64,000 bases of DNA from Myxococcales bacterium (lineage in GTDB: Bacteria > Myxococcota_A > Polyangia > Palsa-1104 > SHYY01). The translations under genes were made by a program, and so were the position numbers. This document shows positions 25,331-63,765 of this stretch, in pieces (the first letter of the stretch is position 1; the number at the start of each line of letters is the position of its first letter). Below the pieces are notes generated by a model, which did not search any database, had not been told where the DNA came from, and worked only from the letters and a program-made list of their open reading frames with translations. The stretch covers positions 1-64,000 of the forward strand of contig SHYY01000005.1 in NCBI GenBank assembly GCA_009692555.1, in the 5' to 3' direction.

Positions 25331-25469
25331 CGTGAATCCTCCTGCCCACCAGAAACCCGGGGCCCGTCGAAAAGGCAACCTTTTTCTCGTCGGGCGAGCG
25401 GATGGAAGGGGCGAGTCCCAGAAGCCCACCGTGCGCCGTGAAGCGGCGCCTTGCACCACCAACCCCGTG

Positions 25470-25826
25470 GGATGAAAAGGAACCCACCCTGGCAAGAGTC
25501 GAGCAACCAGGTAGCCCGGCCCCCTGCGTGACACCGCGAGGTGTCCAGCAGAAGCGGGGCCTGCATGTCGTCGGCGGCAATCCACGGCTGCGAAGTGACG
25601 GGCCGCAACGCACAGTCAACCCAGATGTAGCCTCGTTAGAGAATGGAGAGGCCGAGTCTCTGGAGATCGGGCGAAGGCAGCATGTGTGGGCGATGGGCTC
25701 GAAGAACGCGCCGACGCACTCTCCCGGGGTAGCAGGGGCGGCACGTCGCGACGGGAAGGCGCTGAACACGGGAGACCTCGTCCGGTGCGGGTGGCACCCG
25801 CAACCGCAGGCACAAGGCCGCGAGCC
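25470..25826 (+). ncRNA. Unassigned structured-RNA-like region, possibly the 5' part of a group II intron
   Basis: No convincing protein is encoded between 25331 and 26009. The stretch has strong local helices. GGCCCC (about 25519) pairs with GGGGCC (about 25555) around CTGC/GCAG and a GACACC-GCGA-GGTGTC hairpin with a GNRA tetraloop. TGCGGGT pairs with ACCCGCA near 25787-25803, and TCTCCCG with CGGGAGA across about 25722-25778. The segment GAGCAACCAGGTAGCCCGG recalls domain I of bacterial group II introns. No reverse transcriptase and no domain V occur here. The assignment is tentative; another structured RNA or a decayed element would also fit. Confidence 0.35.
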
Positions 25827-25948
25827 GATGCTCACGCGCTTGTGCCGGAGAGGTGATCCCCCGCGCGAGAGTGCCCCTGAATCGACTACGACTACGACTA
25901 CGACTACGACTACGTGAGCGGAGGGACCCCCTTCTTCGTTAAGCACCC
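25827..25948 (+). repeat. S23-tail plus CGACTA array (copy 2)
   Basis: Positions 25827-25882 encode MLTRLCRRGDPPRESAPES, nearly identical in DNA and protein to the C-terminus of the S23-like fragment at 1-60 (minus strand). The CGACTA array fills 25883-25914, and the flank CGTGA..GAGGGACCCCC..GTTAAGCACCC follows to 25948, as at 338-410. Only the tail of the S23 gene is present here: similarity stops abruptly at GATGCTCACGCGC, where the structured RNA-like region begins. This indicates a recombination or insertion junction. Confidence 0.75.
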
Positions 25949-38909: not shown

Positions 38910-39784
38910 CGTTTCCCCGAGGGCGCGGAAGCAAGCCGCGCCGGCGCAGGCCACTCGACGGAGATCGCGTAGCGGGAGCGCAGGGCGTCCAGGGCCGCGC
39001 GATTGGCCTCCCCGCGCCGGGCGGCCAGCAGCCCCTGTCGGACCCGCTCGCGAACGCTGGCCAGCGACGGGGTCGTCCCCTCGATGCGCTGCTCAACCGC
39101 CACCAGGTGCAGGCCGAAGCTCGACGGAAGCGGGTCGCTCCAGGCGCCCGCCGGCAAGGCCTCGACGAGGGCCGCGAACGGCGCGCCGAAGACCCTGGCG
39201 ATCTCGCCCTCCGAGCGCAGCGCGAAGCGGCTCCCGACGAGGAACGGATCGCCCAGGCGGTCGGGATCGACTCCGCCCCGCAGCGACGAGAGCAGCTCCC
39301 TCGCGTCCGCGTCGATCGTGGGACCGCGCCGCTCCCGATTCAGGAAGACGTGGCGGAAGGAGAGGCGCGGGGGGGCGCGAAACTCGTCCGGGTGCTGGTC
39401 GAGCCAGCGCTGCAGCGCGGCGTCATCGGGGGCGGGGAGCGGCGCGGCGTCCTGGGTCAAGAACTCCATTTTTTGCACTAGCCGCCGGCGGACAATGAGG
39501 TCGCCGCGGTCGAGCCCCAGGGCGAGCGCCTCGCGATAGAGCACCTCCTCGTCGAGGAAGCGGGCGACGAGACCCCGCTCCTCTTCGGGGGTCGGTGCGC
39601 GCCCTGACCGCCTCTGCTCCTCGGCTCGGAGCCCCTCGACAAACACCGACGACACGGAGAGCCGATGGGGCTCGGAGGGCCGCGCCACGGTAGCGTGGAG
39701 GGCGAAGAGGAGACCGCCCGCGGCGGCGAAGTGGAGCGCGGGCTCACGCAGCCAGCGCCGGAGGTGATCGCGAGGTGGAGGCAC
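38906..39784 (-). CDS. Membrane-anchored parvulin-type peptidyl-prolyl isomerase
   Basis: The GTG start at 39784 gives 292 residues. A single membrane anchor lies near residues 15-34 (LHFAAAGGLLFALHATVA), then a SurA/PpiD-like helical segment (DEEVLYREALALGLDRGDLI) and a parvulin domain (RLSFRHVFLNRERRG to SSFGLHLVAVEQRIEGTTPSL) with the family's His-Val pattern. It probably folds or chaperones exported proteins such as the DUF3604 or HupE-like partners encoded downstream in the same operon. It is divergent from mepA. Confidence 0.87.
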   Translation of the reverse strand: MPPPRDHLRRWLREPALHFAAAGGLLFALHATVARPSEPHRLSVSSVFVEGLRAEEQRRSGRAPTPEEERGLVARFLDEEVLYREALALGLDRGDLIVRRRLVQKMEFLTQDAAPLPAPDDAALQRWLDQHPDEFRAPPRLSFRHVFLNRERRGPTIDADARELLSSLRGGVDPDRLGDPFLVGSRFALRSEGEIARVFGAPFAALVEALPAGAWSDPLPSSFGLHLVAVEQRIEGTTPSLASVRERVRQGLLAARRGEANRAALDALRSRYAISVEWPAPARLASAPSGKR

Positions 39785-39909
39785 GGGGCGACGGTAACGC
39801 CGGACGTGGCGGGTGGCCAGCGTCCCCGCCCGTTCCCGTTGACCCAGGGCGCCTCGCGGGGCCGGGCGGGTTCTTGCCGGTTGGCTTGGCCTTTTCGCTT
39901 GCCTTCCTG

Positions 39910-40746
39910 ATGCGGACCGGAAAAAATCGGGCGGTGCCGCTCCGCCGCTTTGCGTTTGTCTCCTTCCTGCTCCTCTTGTCGTGCTCGGCCGGCTGCGTGG
40001 CCCGCGCGATGTTCACCGACGGGAGCAGCGTCTCCATCGGCCGCGCCGATCGCGGCCTGCTGCGGGGTGGGCGCCAGCTCGCGGCGGCAGGCGATGGTTT
40101 CGTGGTGCCGCCGACCTGGGCTGCTCGCGGTACGCAATGGGGCACCGACGAGCTGGTCTCGGCGATCGAGCGCGCGGCGTTGCGCGTCGCCGGAGAGCAC
40201 CCGGGCGCCCGCCTCGGAGTCGGTGATCTCTCGCGCCACGGCGGCGGCGACATGTCGTTTCATCGCTCACACGAGAACGGCCGCGACGCCGATCTCCTCT
40301 TCTACGCCGTCGACGAGGTGGGCGCGCCGCTCTCGCCTGCCGACGCGATGCCGCGCTTCCGTGGCCGCGACCTCCATTCGCGCCCGCCCTACGACGGTGG
40401 CCAGGCGGTCTCGTCGCGGCGCTTCGACCTCCCGCGCAACTGGGCCCTCGTCGCTGCGTTGCTCGAGGACCCGGCGATCACGGTCGAATACCTCTTCATC
40501 TCCGAACGCCTGCGCGACCGGCTGCTCGAGCACGCGGTCGCGGTCGGGGCTCCGGGCGAGGTCGTCCAGCGCGCTCGGCGTGCCCTCCGCCAGCCGGCCC
40601 GCTTTCCGCCCCACGACGATCACCTCCACCTCCGCATCCGCTGCCCCCCGGGCGATCGCTTCCAGGGCTGTGTCGACGAGGGCAAGGTGCGGCTCCGCAG
40701 CGAGGTGATCAAGCCCGAGGCACCGCGCCGGCGAAGGGTGAGCTAA
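39910..40746 (+). CDS. mepA: Penicillin-insensitive murein endopeptidase (MepA-like) lipoprotein
   Basis: The start at 39910 gives 278 residues with an N-terminal signal and a lipobox ending CSAGC (Cys29). The M74 (LAS-type) zinc peptidase signature is complete: GVGDLSRHGGGDMSFHRSHENGRDADLLFY, with the first zinc ligands in the HENGRDAD segment, and DDHLHLRIRC holding the HxH near the C-terminus. MepA cleaves DD- and LD-crosslinks in peptidoglycan in the periplasm. The lipid anchor differs from the soluble E. coli enzyme. The stop codon abuts a palindromic hairpin that could serve as terminator. Confidence 0.9.
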   Translation: MRTGKNRAVPLRRFAFVSFLLLLSCSAGCVARAMFTDGSSVSIGRADRGLLRGGRQLAAAGDGFVVPPTWAARGTQWGTDELVSAIERAALRVAGEHPGARLGVGDLSRHGGGDMSFHRSHENGRDADLLFYAVDEVGAPLSPADAMPRFRGRDLHSRPPYDGGQAVSSRRFDLPRNWALVAALLEDPAITVEYLFISERLRDRLLEHAVAVGAPGEVVQRARRALRQPARFPPHDDHLHLRIRCPPGDRFQGCVDEGKVRLRSEVIKPEAPRRRRVS

Positions 40747-40860
40747 AAAATGTCGCATTGATGATGCGACATTGTTTAGCCAGTTTCTCACGGGGCGTGC
40801 CGCCCCGCCCCGCCGGCAAGCCGTCGGGGTCCCCACCCCTGCTCACGCGGCGACTCCGCC
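40743..40860. repeat. Palindrome plus GC-rich core element (copy A)
   Basis: A long palindrome follows the mepA stop: AATGTCGCAT (40749-40758) pairs with ATGCGACATT (40764-40773), and CTAAA/TTTAG extend it outward. It may act as a terminator. The GC-rich core shares CGTGCCGCCCCGCCCCG (40796-40812) and the run TCGGGGTCCCCACCCCTGC (to 40842) with the element at 63544-63765. A sister palindrome occurs at 42147-42175, downstream of the next gene. Confidence 0.6.
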
Positions 40861-40933
40861 GCGACGCGGCCTTTGGCCGCTTGGATCGGCTACCCGGGGG
40901 CCGCGTAATGCGACGACCCGACCGACTCCCGGC

Positions 40934-41030
40934 AAAGCCGTGTGCGGGAAATCCGCACGCACGGTTTGAAAGGGGGTCCTACCTTTTCACCAACGACCAA
41001 CCGTCCGACAGTGAAAGGGTAGGATCTACC
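40934..41030 (+). ncRNA. Group II intron remnant: domain V and a domain-VI-like stem
   Basis: Positions 40935-40967 fold as group II intron domain V: AAGCCGTGT (40935-40943) pairs with GCACGGTTT (40959-40967) including the G-U of the catalytic AGC triad, a two-base bulge AC (40957-40958) follows, and the upper stem GCGG/CCGC carries a GAAA loop. After a short linker, TCCTACCTTTTCAC (40977-40990) pairs with GTGAAAGGGTAGGA (41011-41024) in a 14-base-pair stem in the position of domain VI, though no bulged branch-point A is obvious. No reverse transcriptase or domains I-IV are recognisable upstream, so this is a 3' fragment. The stem holds the ribosome binding site of the gene starting at 41032. 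Confidence 0.65.
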
Positions 41031-41031
41031 A

Positions 41032-42132
41032 ATGAGCGCGACCCCCGCAGGCTGGATCGGCAGCCGTCGCTTCGACCTCGCCTTCTTCTTTGTCGGGACC
41101 CCGGTCGCCGCGGTGGCGGTCGGGGCACTCGTCCTCGCGCTTCCGTCGCTGCTGGTCCCCCTGTGGTGGCTATGGACGGTGCTGATCGAGGGGCCGCACC
41201 TGTGCGCCACCTGGGCCCGCACCTACCTCGATCCCGGCGAGCGCCGACGCCGGCGTGGACTCCTGATCGCCAGCCTCGGCTTCATCCTCGCGGGCCCGGT
41301 GGTGTGGGCGGTCGCGCGCGTGACTGACTCGCCGTCGGTGTTCGAGGGCCTTGTCCTCTTCGCCGCGCTGTGGAGCTGGCACCACGGCGTGCGGCAGCAG
41401 TACGGGCTGCTGGCGATCTACCAGCGCCTCGCCGGCGTCGAGGAGCGGGTCCGCCGGATCGACCGCTGGTTCCTCTACGGGGCGCTGTGGGGCCTTTTCC
41501 TGCTCGCCCTCGCGGCCCTGCCGGCCAATCGGTTGGTGCTCAAGCTGCCCGCTGCGATGCCCCGCGAAGCCGAACTCGTGATCCTCACGGGCGAGGGGCT
41601 GCTCGGCGCCTGGGTGCTCGCTTACGGGGGGCTGCTGGTCGCCCGCCATCGCCGCGGCGATCCGACCCGCCCGGGGCTGTTCGCGCTCTTGCCCGTCGTC
41701 GGGGTCGCGCTGTTTGTTGCCTTCGTGGTAGGGCGCTTCGAGCCGCTCCTTCCGCGTCCGCAGAGCCCGGAGCAGTTCGTGCTCGCGGTGACCCTGGTCG
41801 GCGGCCTCTCGCACGGACTCCAGTATCTTGGAATCGTGTTCGCGGCGAATGAGCGCCGCTACCGGGTGGCCGCGCCGTCGCTGGCCGCCACCCTCGGCCG
41901 CTCGCCGCTCCGCGCCTTCCTCGCCTTTGCCGCTGCCTCGGGGCTCTACTTCGCCCTCAACGCCGCGCGATCCGGCGTCCCTTCGCTGGCGCTATTCCAG
42001 AACGACAGCGAGGCGGCGCGCTTCGCCCTCGCGCTCTACTGGGGCGTCTTCTTCCACCACTTCTACCTCGACCAGAAGATCTGGCGCGTCTCGCGCGATC
42101 ACGCGCTGCGGGCGGAGCTGCAGATCGCCTGA
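41032..42132 (+). CDS. Multi-spanning membrane protein of unknown function with conserved His motifs
   Basis: The 366-residue protein has eight or nine hydrophobic spans and no signal peptide. Striking motifs are IEGPHLCATWARTYLDPGE, LWSWHHGVRQQYGLLAIYQR, GLSHGLQYLGIV and the C-terminal FFHHFYLDQKIWR. The clustered His residues at membrane ends resemble the metal ligands of membrane di-iron enzymes (desaturase or carotenoid-cleaving families), but the spacing does not match one I can name. The ribosome binding site (AGGA at 41021-41024) is within the intron-derived stem. Palindromes flank the gene on both sides. Function unknown. Confidence 0.8.
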   Translation: MSATPAGWIGSRRFDLAFFFVGTPVAAVAVGALVLALPSLLVPLWWLWTVLIEGPHLCATWARTYLDPGERRRRRGLLIASLGFILAGPVVWAVARVTDSPSVFEGLVLFAALWSWHHGVRQQYGLLAIYQRLAGVEERVRRIDRWFLYGALWGLFLLALAALPANRLVLKLPAAMPREAELVILTGEGLLGAWVLAYGGLLVARHRRGDPTRPGLFALLPVVGVALFVAFVVGRFEPLLPRPQSPEQFVLAVTLVGGLSHGLQYLGIVFAANERRYRVAAPSLAATLGRSPLRAFLAFAAASGLYFALNAARSGVPSLALFQNDSEAARFALALYWGVFFHHFYLDQKIWRVSRDHALRAELQIA

Positions 42133-63316: not shown

Positions 63317-63547
63317 ATGGCGAAGACCCAGTGCCCGTTGACGAAGACCGAGTTCATGGAGAAGGCGACCGCGGTCAAGATCGACATCGGCGGCGTGCCG
63401 ATGGTCGCCGAGGCCCGCGAATTCTCGACCGGCTCGTTTGGCTGGTACCTCACCGGCAAGGCGACCCTCACCGTCGACGGCAAGCCGATCCAGGTCCAGG
63501 TCGGCTGCAACCTCGCGGTGGTCGGCAGCAAGGAAGCCGCGCGCTAG
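63317..63547 (+). CDS. Small conserved hypothetical protein
   Basis: An AAGGAG site at 63305 precedes the ATG and the gene gives 76 residues, MAKTQCPLTKTEFMEKATAV then DIGGVPMVAEAREFSTGSFG, WYLTGKATLTVDGKPIQVQVG and VVGSKEAAR. The F.TGS.GWY..GK...TVDGK motif recurs in small proteins of Myxococcota and Planctomycetes by my recollection. It is beta-rich and has no signal peptide. The stop codon TAG (63545-63547) is inside the left end of the adjacent element, so the natural C-terminus may have been altered by insertion. Confidence 0.75.
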   Translation: MAKTQCPLTKTEFMEKATAVKIDIGGVPMVAEAREFSTGSFGWYLTGKATLTVDGKPIQVQVGCNLAVVGSKEAAR

Positions 63548-63765
63548 TGTCCTGTCCGCGAAATTCTTTGCAGAATTTCCCGGCCAGCACACTAGCCACG
63601 ATCCCAGGGTGCGTGCCGCCCCGCCCCGTCGGCCCTCCCCCACTCGATCCTGGGGGCAAGCCCCCGTCCGTCGGGGTCCCCACCCCTGCCGACGGCGGCA
63701 CTTGCCGCCGGGCCGCGGCAGTGCGCGGCCTTTTTCTACTGCGAACTTCTGTGTCGGGACACTAG
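63544..63765. mobile_element. MITE-like element, 222 bases
   Basis: CTAGTGTCC (63544-63552) is an inverted copy of GGACACTAG (63757-63765), and ACACTAG recurs internally at 63589-63595. Next to the left end GAAATTC and GAATTTC (63560-63579) form a hairpin. The core contains CGTGCCGCCCCGCCCCG (63612-63628) and TCGGGGTCCCCACCCCTGC (to 63689), shared with the element at 40743-40860. No ORF of its own is visible. A miniature non-autonomous element with terminal inverted repeats is the best description. Confidence 0.65.

Follow-up and report, generated by a model that had tools for sequence, protein, structure and literature searches.

The 64,000-nucleotide stretch analysed here (the window; Myxococcales bacterium, contig SHYY01000005.1, positions 1 to 64,000) carries at 63544-63765 a short non-coding element whose interior, a conserved core of several hairpins, recurs throughout the same genome and in related genomes between ends of several different types. 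This core is under structural constraint, the elements are mobile, their cores and ends have separate histories, and they lie downstream of genes with a strong bias towards the sense orientation. An earlier note on this DNA had described the element as a miniature inverted-repeat transposable element (MITE)-like copy that shares its core, though not its ends, with another at 40.8 kb, and had proposed a design of one core with exchangeable terminal palindromes. The common core was borne out, as each quoted motif occurs without mismatch in both copies (CGTGCCGCCCCGCCCCG at 40796-40812 and 63612-63628; TCGGGGTCCCCACCCCTGC at 40824-40842 and 63671-63689), and the modular design was supported by 71 own-genome matches, 55 copies from five other genomes and discordant similarities of cores and ends. 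The difference in ends held for the left ends (CTAG versus a CTAA palindrome), which alone are comparable since the right end of the 40.8-kb copy is missing. The placement at stop codons, the preference for the sense direction and the conservation of the fold go beyond what that note had remarked on.

A constrained fold carried between different ends

Allowing up to three mismatches, CGTGCCGCCCCGCCCCG alone occurred at chance level in the GC-rich window (6 found, 5.59 expected), and TCGGGGTCCCCACCCCTGC gave two matches, both exact, against 0.04 expected, a number reached in none of 100 shuffles. Throughout the genome of the window (G000, a 6.1-Mb draft of 283 contigs, 80% complete, 71% GC), TCGGGGTCCCCACCCCTGC matched 44 times with up to two mismatches, and the reversed pattern used as a control not once. 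Of 37 distinct cores, 29 entered a first alignment (A1), from which a covariance model was built; two truncated at contig ends and six with inserts or near others were left out. The model found at least 71 core matches in this genome at E ≤ 0.01, with 150 of 15,750 candidates scored. When clustered by script according to their left palindromes, a check that the earlier note had proposed, these 71 copies fell into six end families (A 34, C 13, F 9, B 5, G 3 and D 2) and 5 unclassified copies; one of those counted under A (C170:4336) is a C copy that lies within an A copy. The elements measure about 170-220 bp, and family A ends begin with CTAGTGTCC. The 55 copies read from other genomes (21 fetched of 28 matches in G002, 12 of 17 in G008, 20 of 30 in G010, 1 of 3 in G011 and 1 of 1 in G001) added end type E (CTAGTACCTCGCC and relatives) in G008, G010 and G011, type H (CTAGCAGGCTGTTGAAAAA) in G002 with relatives in G010, and type I (CTAGTGCCCCGG) in G002, and more end types were seen in G045 (CTAGTGCCATGACC) and G104 (a CGGAGCATTCTGCTCCG hairpin type).

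The distribution of the core is patchy. Eight of 58 genomes of relatives, own genome included, matched the core model at E ≤ 0.001; across the class at least 13 of 317 genomes, from 10 of 151 genera, matched at E ≤ 1e-5, and in an even draw of the phylum at least 3 of 377 did, all three belonging to the class. The class and phylum counts are floors, as at most 11 and 9 candidates per genome, respectively, were scored under stricter filters. An exact core pattern was found in seven stretches from two named assemblies of a genome collection (Myxococcales bacterium nzgw252 and Polyangium sp. CRAIB_MAG117), a scan that may leave out the own genome, while viral contigs held 0 matches to one exact core pattern. 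The window element and one H palindrome, compared with plasmids and phages, gave plasmid matches at E 0.1-0.7 only and no phage match.

To describe the fold we used a second alignment (A2) of 43 chosen loci (46 rows, 45 distinct), which was fitted to the model, so that its pairing figures lean that way. Over the 45 distinct rows, standard pairs filled 96.5% of 1061 cells and two-sided compensatory changes were present at 23 of 24 pairs; covariation reached 0.557 compared to 0.157 in shuffles (0 of 500 as high) and 0.043-0.099 with the partner slid, and further pair types numbered 43 compared to 36.3 in shuffles (3 of 500 as high). A plain MAFFT alignment, not fitted to the model, already showed two-sided changes at 9 of the 24 pairs. 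G-U occupied 10 of the 1061 cells, A-C 12 and other mismatches 25. The window copy itself folded better than its shuffles, with z values of -5.4 as RNA and -4.4 as DNA.

The elements start with a left palindrome of roughly 35-65 bp that opens with CTAG, CTAA, CTGA or CTCA. Next come a short spacer and, in most, GATC; the first two hairpins, whose loops are mostly TGC in hairpin 1 and AAA or similar in hairpin 2; a linker rich in C, which reads CCCCACCCC in many copies; hairpins 3 (mostly with an ACT loop) and 4; and a right end specific to the family. By reading, the left palindrome in A, B, D, E, H and I consists of a terminal repeat and its own inverted copy; left and right ends are related by inversion in A, E, H and I, weakly so in B and D, and not in C, F and G; and the copies of G045, G077 and G084 hold hairpins 1 and 2 and the linker only. 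Four copies of G010 (L199, L201, L203 and, inverted, L209) have in common a further module after the core, a GCACGAACGTGCGGCC hairpin region, on the strength of which modules beyond the core may be exchanged too. In another locus of that genome (L196, 1407-1524 on the forward and 1515-1629 on the reverse strand), two cores of different subtype lie tail to tail as one large inverted element.

The linker and the 3' arm of hairpin 1 stay alike while both change (mirror order 5.82 vs 4.82, direct order 5.47 vs 4.79; 0 of 500 shuffles each; 34 distinct pairs). This likeness is best in mirror order, as in L195, L187 and L259 of A2, and judging by these tracts, paired G-tracts on the other strand could form a quadruplex around hairpin 2. 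Pairing of the linker with the 5' arm of hairpin 1 was also considered; the parallel (2 of 500 shuffles as high) and antiparallel (1 of 500) arrangements both exceeded shuffles, and neither was chosen. The resemblance between linker and 3' arm is the stronger signal.

In the copies tested, the core did not match a known RNA family. Rfam gave no match at the gathering threshold in 63544-63765 or in 19 loci with core copies, and a search of one element at E ≤ 5 returned just two chance-level matches (E 0.45 and 0.67), on which grounds a known RNA family was set aside. For guide RNAs (HEARO, omega RNA) there was likewise no Rfam match in the 19 loci and none relevant at E ≤ 5 in the one element, IscB not having been searched. 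A group II intron, suggested as the identity by a domain V-VI match at 40933-40987, was rejected, as the 19 other loci had no intron match.

Cores and ends have separate histories, as their similarities are discordant and ends occur without cores. An E-ended core of G011 and a C-ended core of G008 are 97% identical, with left ends at 48%, within the 33-55% of unrelated pairs, and E-ended copies of G011 and G008 agree at 70% in their ends and at 84% in their cores. Much the same terminal repeat, CTAGACCGAC, is found with a core in G010 (L208, CTAGACCGACATC) and without a core match in G002 (L281, CTAGACCGACCTC), and an H-type palindrome stands alone, coreless, at L223. The three terminal repeats per element that several families carry would offer an easy exchange route, in which the palindrome alone or the whole could be used, and alternative end use, nested insertion and recombination would then pass the core between end types. 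We tentatively consider, as a possibility of rather low probability, that the core is itself selfish, a folded module living as a parasite on unrelated transposon ends, which passes from each end type to another and persists as its carriers are replaced, with its placement tied to transcription of the upstream gene.

Mobility, target sites and orientation relative to genes

The elements are mobile: their ends are fixed, homologous sites lack them, and they nest in one another. Homologues of the gene upstream of the window element were found in nine other genomes (58-72% identical), and in all eight with readable downstream sequence the element was absent after them, with no core match in the loci; in G001, the sister genome, the last residues of the protein are the same and the stop is TGA. 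In L108 an A copy is interrupted at TTTCTCAGCCAG by a C copy, and in L106 the right CTAG of an A copy is where an F copy begins, which has no second CTAG after it. Fixed boundaries, compensatory pairs, the reversed-pattern control and homologous sites without the element together dispose of the objection, raised in the earlier note, that the core might be a common GC-rich motif without any element structure.

Family A has CTAG at the left end in 31 of 34 copies and at the right in 27 of the 31 whose right end was located; B and D have CTAA on the left and CTAG on the right, which could be a TA duplication, F has CTAG and CTGA, and across families the end tetranucleotides are mostly CTAG, CTAA, CTGA, CTCA or TCAG. 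CTAG is rare in the window (13 in 64 kb vs 169 expected from base composition), and 3 of the 13 lie within the window element. Some insertion sequences favour CTAG or YTAR targets, which serves as a lead only. The ends also supply stop codons. In the own genome, the left end was located and the left gene points at the element in 47 copies; in 37 of these the stop of that gene lay exactly in the element's end (A 24/28, B 3/3, D 1/1, F 7/8, G 2/2, C 0/5), and the right end held the stop of a right gene pointing at the element in 18 of 30 (A 10/17, C 6/7, B 1/1, D 1/1, F 0/3, G 0/1).

The earlier note had also suggested looking for a transposase gene with matching terminal repeats, and none was found among the four families searched as partners (Y1, DUF772, DDE_3 and TnpB), none of which was linked to the element. 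DUF772, which we take to represent IS5/IS1182, had no match in six genomes, and TnpB none in five. DDE_3 (IS630-type) was present in G002 only of six genomes, with 4 matches, all without the core, one being a broken gene bordered by a coreless CTAG-ended palindrome; such a palindromic CTAG-ended repeat without core occupies about 200-375 of L281, directly after a contig-end piece of a DDE_3 gene. Y1_Tnp gave 15 matches in 3 of 6 genomes, none of them in the own genome, and the loci showed no core match and no end match longer than 20 nt. RAYT-like (REP-associated tyrosine transposase) Y1 genes were seen in G002 and G008 (L245, L247, L250, L251, L254, L255 and L257), with no core match in the loci.

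These results bear on an alternative that we regard as unlikely, namely that the core, folded as single-stranded DNA, takes a direct part in transposition or replication in the manner of IS200/IS605 and REP (repetitive extragenic palindromic) hairpins, the left target being kept and another site cleaved on the right. Pairs that are almost purely Watson-Crick speak for it, since an RNA selected on the sense strand should hold more G-U than A-C and their equality hints at DNA, and so do the Y1 transposases of three of the six genomes, the F copy that starts at the CTAG of its A neighbour, and the unlike left and right tetranucleotides of B, D and F, which a plain 4-bp duplication would not give. 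The ends of B, D and F fit a left target that is kept, not duplicated, together with a hairpin at each end; A and C are indecisive. However, the own genome holds 71 copies and no Y1 match, Y1 loci elsewhere lack the core and long end matches, terminal inverted repeats resembling those of DDE elements can be read in families A, E, H and I, and a sense bias relative to genes is not expected from single-stranded DNA transposition.

That bias was measured with a codon model seeded on third-position GC content (GC3) in 126 copies, of which 46 left flanks remained uncalled. The left gene pointed at the element in 72 of the 80 called flanks and away in 8, firmly so in G000 (48/50) and G010 (15/17) and with few calls in G002 (5/6) and G008 (3/5). 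Between tandem gene pairs, 20 elements were in sense and 2 in antisense orientation (P = 1.2e-4), with sense-to-antisense counts of 12:1 in G000 and 8:1 in the others. A plain GC3 caller gave a parallel result (56 toward, 11 away; tandem pairs 12 sense, 2 antisense), and Pfam domains were found in 7 of 10 left-flank proteins of the accepted caller (nine sampled and the 76-aa protein of the window, which itself has no Pfam domain). CTAG reads the same on both strands, so a CTAG target gives no direction; the bias comes either from the loss of antisense copies or from a link between insertion and transcription.

We think it improbable that purifying selection alone explains the pattern, with G-rich antisense transcripts (GGGGTGGGG and GGGGCGGGG tracts) forming persistent R-loops or quadruplexes, mainly sense copies surviving, and the core being neutral cargo or a chromosome-binding site. 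It would agree with the two reverse-strand G-rich blocks around hairpin 2, the linker and hairpin-1 arm described above, which stay alike while changing. Neutral cargo, however, would not keep 23 of 24 pairs through compensatory changes, and 26 of the 126 copies persist between convergent gene pairs, where the right-hand gene reads the element antisense.

The 20:2 ratio in tandem pairs would follow directly from insertion through RNA, by splicing or copying into mRNA near the stop codon and subsequent reverse transcription, as in retro-moved introns, and the window does contain two matches to group II introns, of which one lies shortly after the 40.8-kb copy. This route is nevertheless very unlikely: there was no Rfam match, introns included, in the 19 core loci, and in one element no more than chance-level matches below threshold; terminal inverted repeats and a solitary palindrome are features of DNA transposons, and the left gene points away in 8 of the 80 called copies.

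The two copies in the window

The complete family A element (63544-63765, forward strand, as are all features given here) spans 222 bp from CTAG to CTAG, with ends common to other A copies. It opens with an imperfect palindrome (63544-63595) made of the outer terminal repeat CTAGTGTCCTGTCC and an inner inverted copy ending in CACTAG, followed by the multi-hairpin core from GATCCC to GCGGCC (63600-63730; covariance model R1, E = 1.2e-16), which shows compensatory pairs and whose model match extends over 63600-63747. An additional hairpin lies at about 63634-63667 of this copy. The most conserved stretch, TCGGGGTCCCCACCCCTGC at 63671-63689, comprises the 3' arm of hairpin 2 and the C-rich linker, and the right terminal repeat TACTGCGAACTTCTGTGTCGGGACACTAG (63737-63765), an inverted relative of the left end by reading, is common to other A copies. 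The upstream gene (63317-63547; 76 aa, counted from the chosen ATG at 63317) ends in a TAG at 63545-63547 that is the first TAG of the element.

The family B copy (40743-40889) begins with a near-perfect palindrome, CTAAAAAATGTCGCATTGATGATGCGACATTGTTTAG (40743-40779), whose initial CTAA gives the stop of the open reading frame (ORF) 39775-40746. Its likeness to other copies ends at 40889, with other sequence beyond, and the right end is missing; the complete right end of family B, known from other copies, is GCGACTCTGTCTAG. Shortly downstream lies a group II intron domain V-VI fragment (40933-40987; Rfam RF00029, 46.7 bits), which is without its 5' part in 40890-41030 and stops just before an ATG at 41032. 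Its position after the truncated copy perhaps reflects a 5'-truncated intron insertion or recombination. Elsewhere, 25431-25920 holds a group II intron 5' part (Rfam domain I-IV match at 25479-25739) followed by a GACTAC tandem tract; a resemblance to the beginning of the ORF that precedes an F copy (L145) covers this tract and the bases that follow, and by it the region is possibly another repeat family.

Described families and a proposed explanation

The papers listed by literature searches included none on this core-carrying element, and none of the described families tested fits fully; the element works like a MITE or a REP element. With MITEs of DDE insertion sequences it shares size, terminal inverted repeats in A, E, H and I by reading, lack of coding capacity and CTAG/TA-type ends; it differs in joining one core to many unrelated end types, in the inner inverted copy of its terminal repeat, in the ends of C, F and G, which are not inverted repeats, and in that no matching transposase was found. 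Short, multi-copy, non-coding and mobile, the elements agree in these points with the MITE label of the earlier note; as a classification it is unproven, no matching transposase having been found among the four families searched and the target duplication being ambiguous. Derivatives of IS200/IS605 known as PATEs (palindrome-associated transposable elements) resemble it in hairpins near the ends and in the unequal tetranucleotides of B, D and F, but the present elements have no linked Y1 transposase and no TnpB match. BOX (boxA-boxB-boxC) of Streptococcus pneumoniae is presented in PMC3049150 as modular, tightly folded and interspersed, as is the element here. BOX elements have constant ends around a middle module that differs in number between copies; the present elements show the reverse, a constant middle between variable ends. 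Tn3-derived inverted-repeat miniature elements (TIMEs and TIME-COMP) are likewise mosaic and non-autonomous with differing core content (PMC4133298), but they combine one end type with different cores, whereas here one core combines with different end types.

REP sequences come close in other respects. According to PMC3733652, REP termini supply TAG stops, and REPs lie downstream of genes, between tandem or convergent ones; short palindromes, ends that often give stops and downstream position are thus shared between REP/REPIN (REP doublet forming a hairpin) sequences and the present elements. The main text of that article mentions neither CTAG nor words beginning with myxoc. The REP/REPIN tags GTAG and CGTC differ from the CTAG, CTAA, CTGA, CTCA or TCAG seen here, the conserved multi-hairpin core is an addition, and the own genome has no Y1 match; nor was a RAYT flanked by the repeat, the mark of a REP, found among the 15 Y1 matches, which are without the core or long end matches.

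On balance we think it probable that these are small non-autonomous mobile transposons of MITE or REP kind, moved in trans, with a selected fold that is shared among end types and a core that makes insertion behind an active gene tolerable. Transposases acting in trans would recognise the ends and the rare target CTAG, and the core would be kept because it renders such an insertion tolerable, sense transcription from the upstream gene being blocked or ended. That the core blocks or ends this transcription is the weakest step. The sense bias hints at an effect of transcription and the equality of G-U and A-C at DNA folding. A scan of one A copy for a terminator-like hairpin with a T run at the core end, sense strand, found 1 against a shuffle mean of 0.3.

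Several results weigh against this explanation. Most families other than A are, by reading, without a T run and the terminator scan is weak, so that a terminator role is not general and at best one form. G-U is no commoner than A-C, which leaves the transcribed strand unmarked as the folding strand; their rare and equal occurrence suggests folding as DNA, or else pairing too strict for a distinction. Folded singly at minimum energy, the window copy joins both ends in one long stem and forms some of the consensus hairpins only. No transposase with matching ends appeared in the four families, in draft genomes that are incomplete and in whose assembly repeats are often lost, other families not having been searched. 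A codon model self-trained on the longest ORFs, moreover, gave 28 left genes toward and 25 away (tandem pairs 10 sense, 3 antisense) and reversed the result in G000 (4 toward, 21 away; tandem 2 sense, 3 antisense). This caller was rejected because it seems to have learned shadow frames, the longest ORF at 71% GC often being one.

Names of small bacterial transposons usually refer to the ends, and what lies between them is often regarded as decayed filler. In these elements it is the interior that stays constant, maintained by selection on its fold, and the ends can be exchanged. Should the core have its own function, it would be either a portable module for transcript ends or insulation, or a structured parasite of transposons, and if it is a selfish unit, it would be a hyperparasite of mobile elements made of structure, not of a gene. 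Insertion at stop codons, together with the sense bias, also offers naturally occurring data on how insertions come to be oriented with respect to transcription, by selection or by mechanism.
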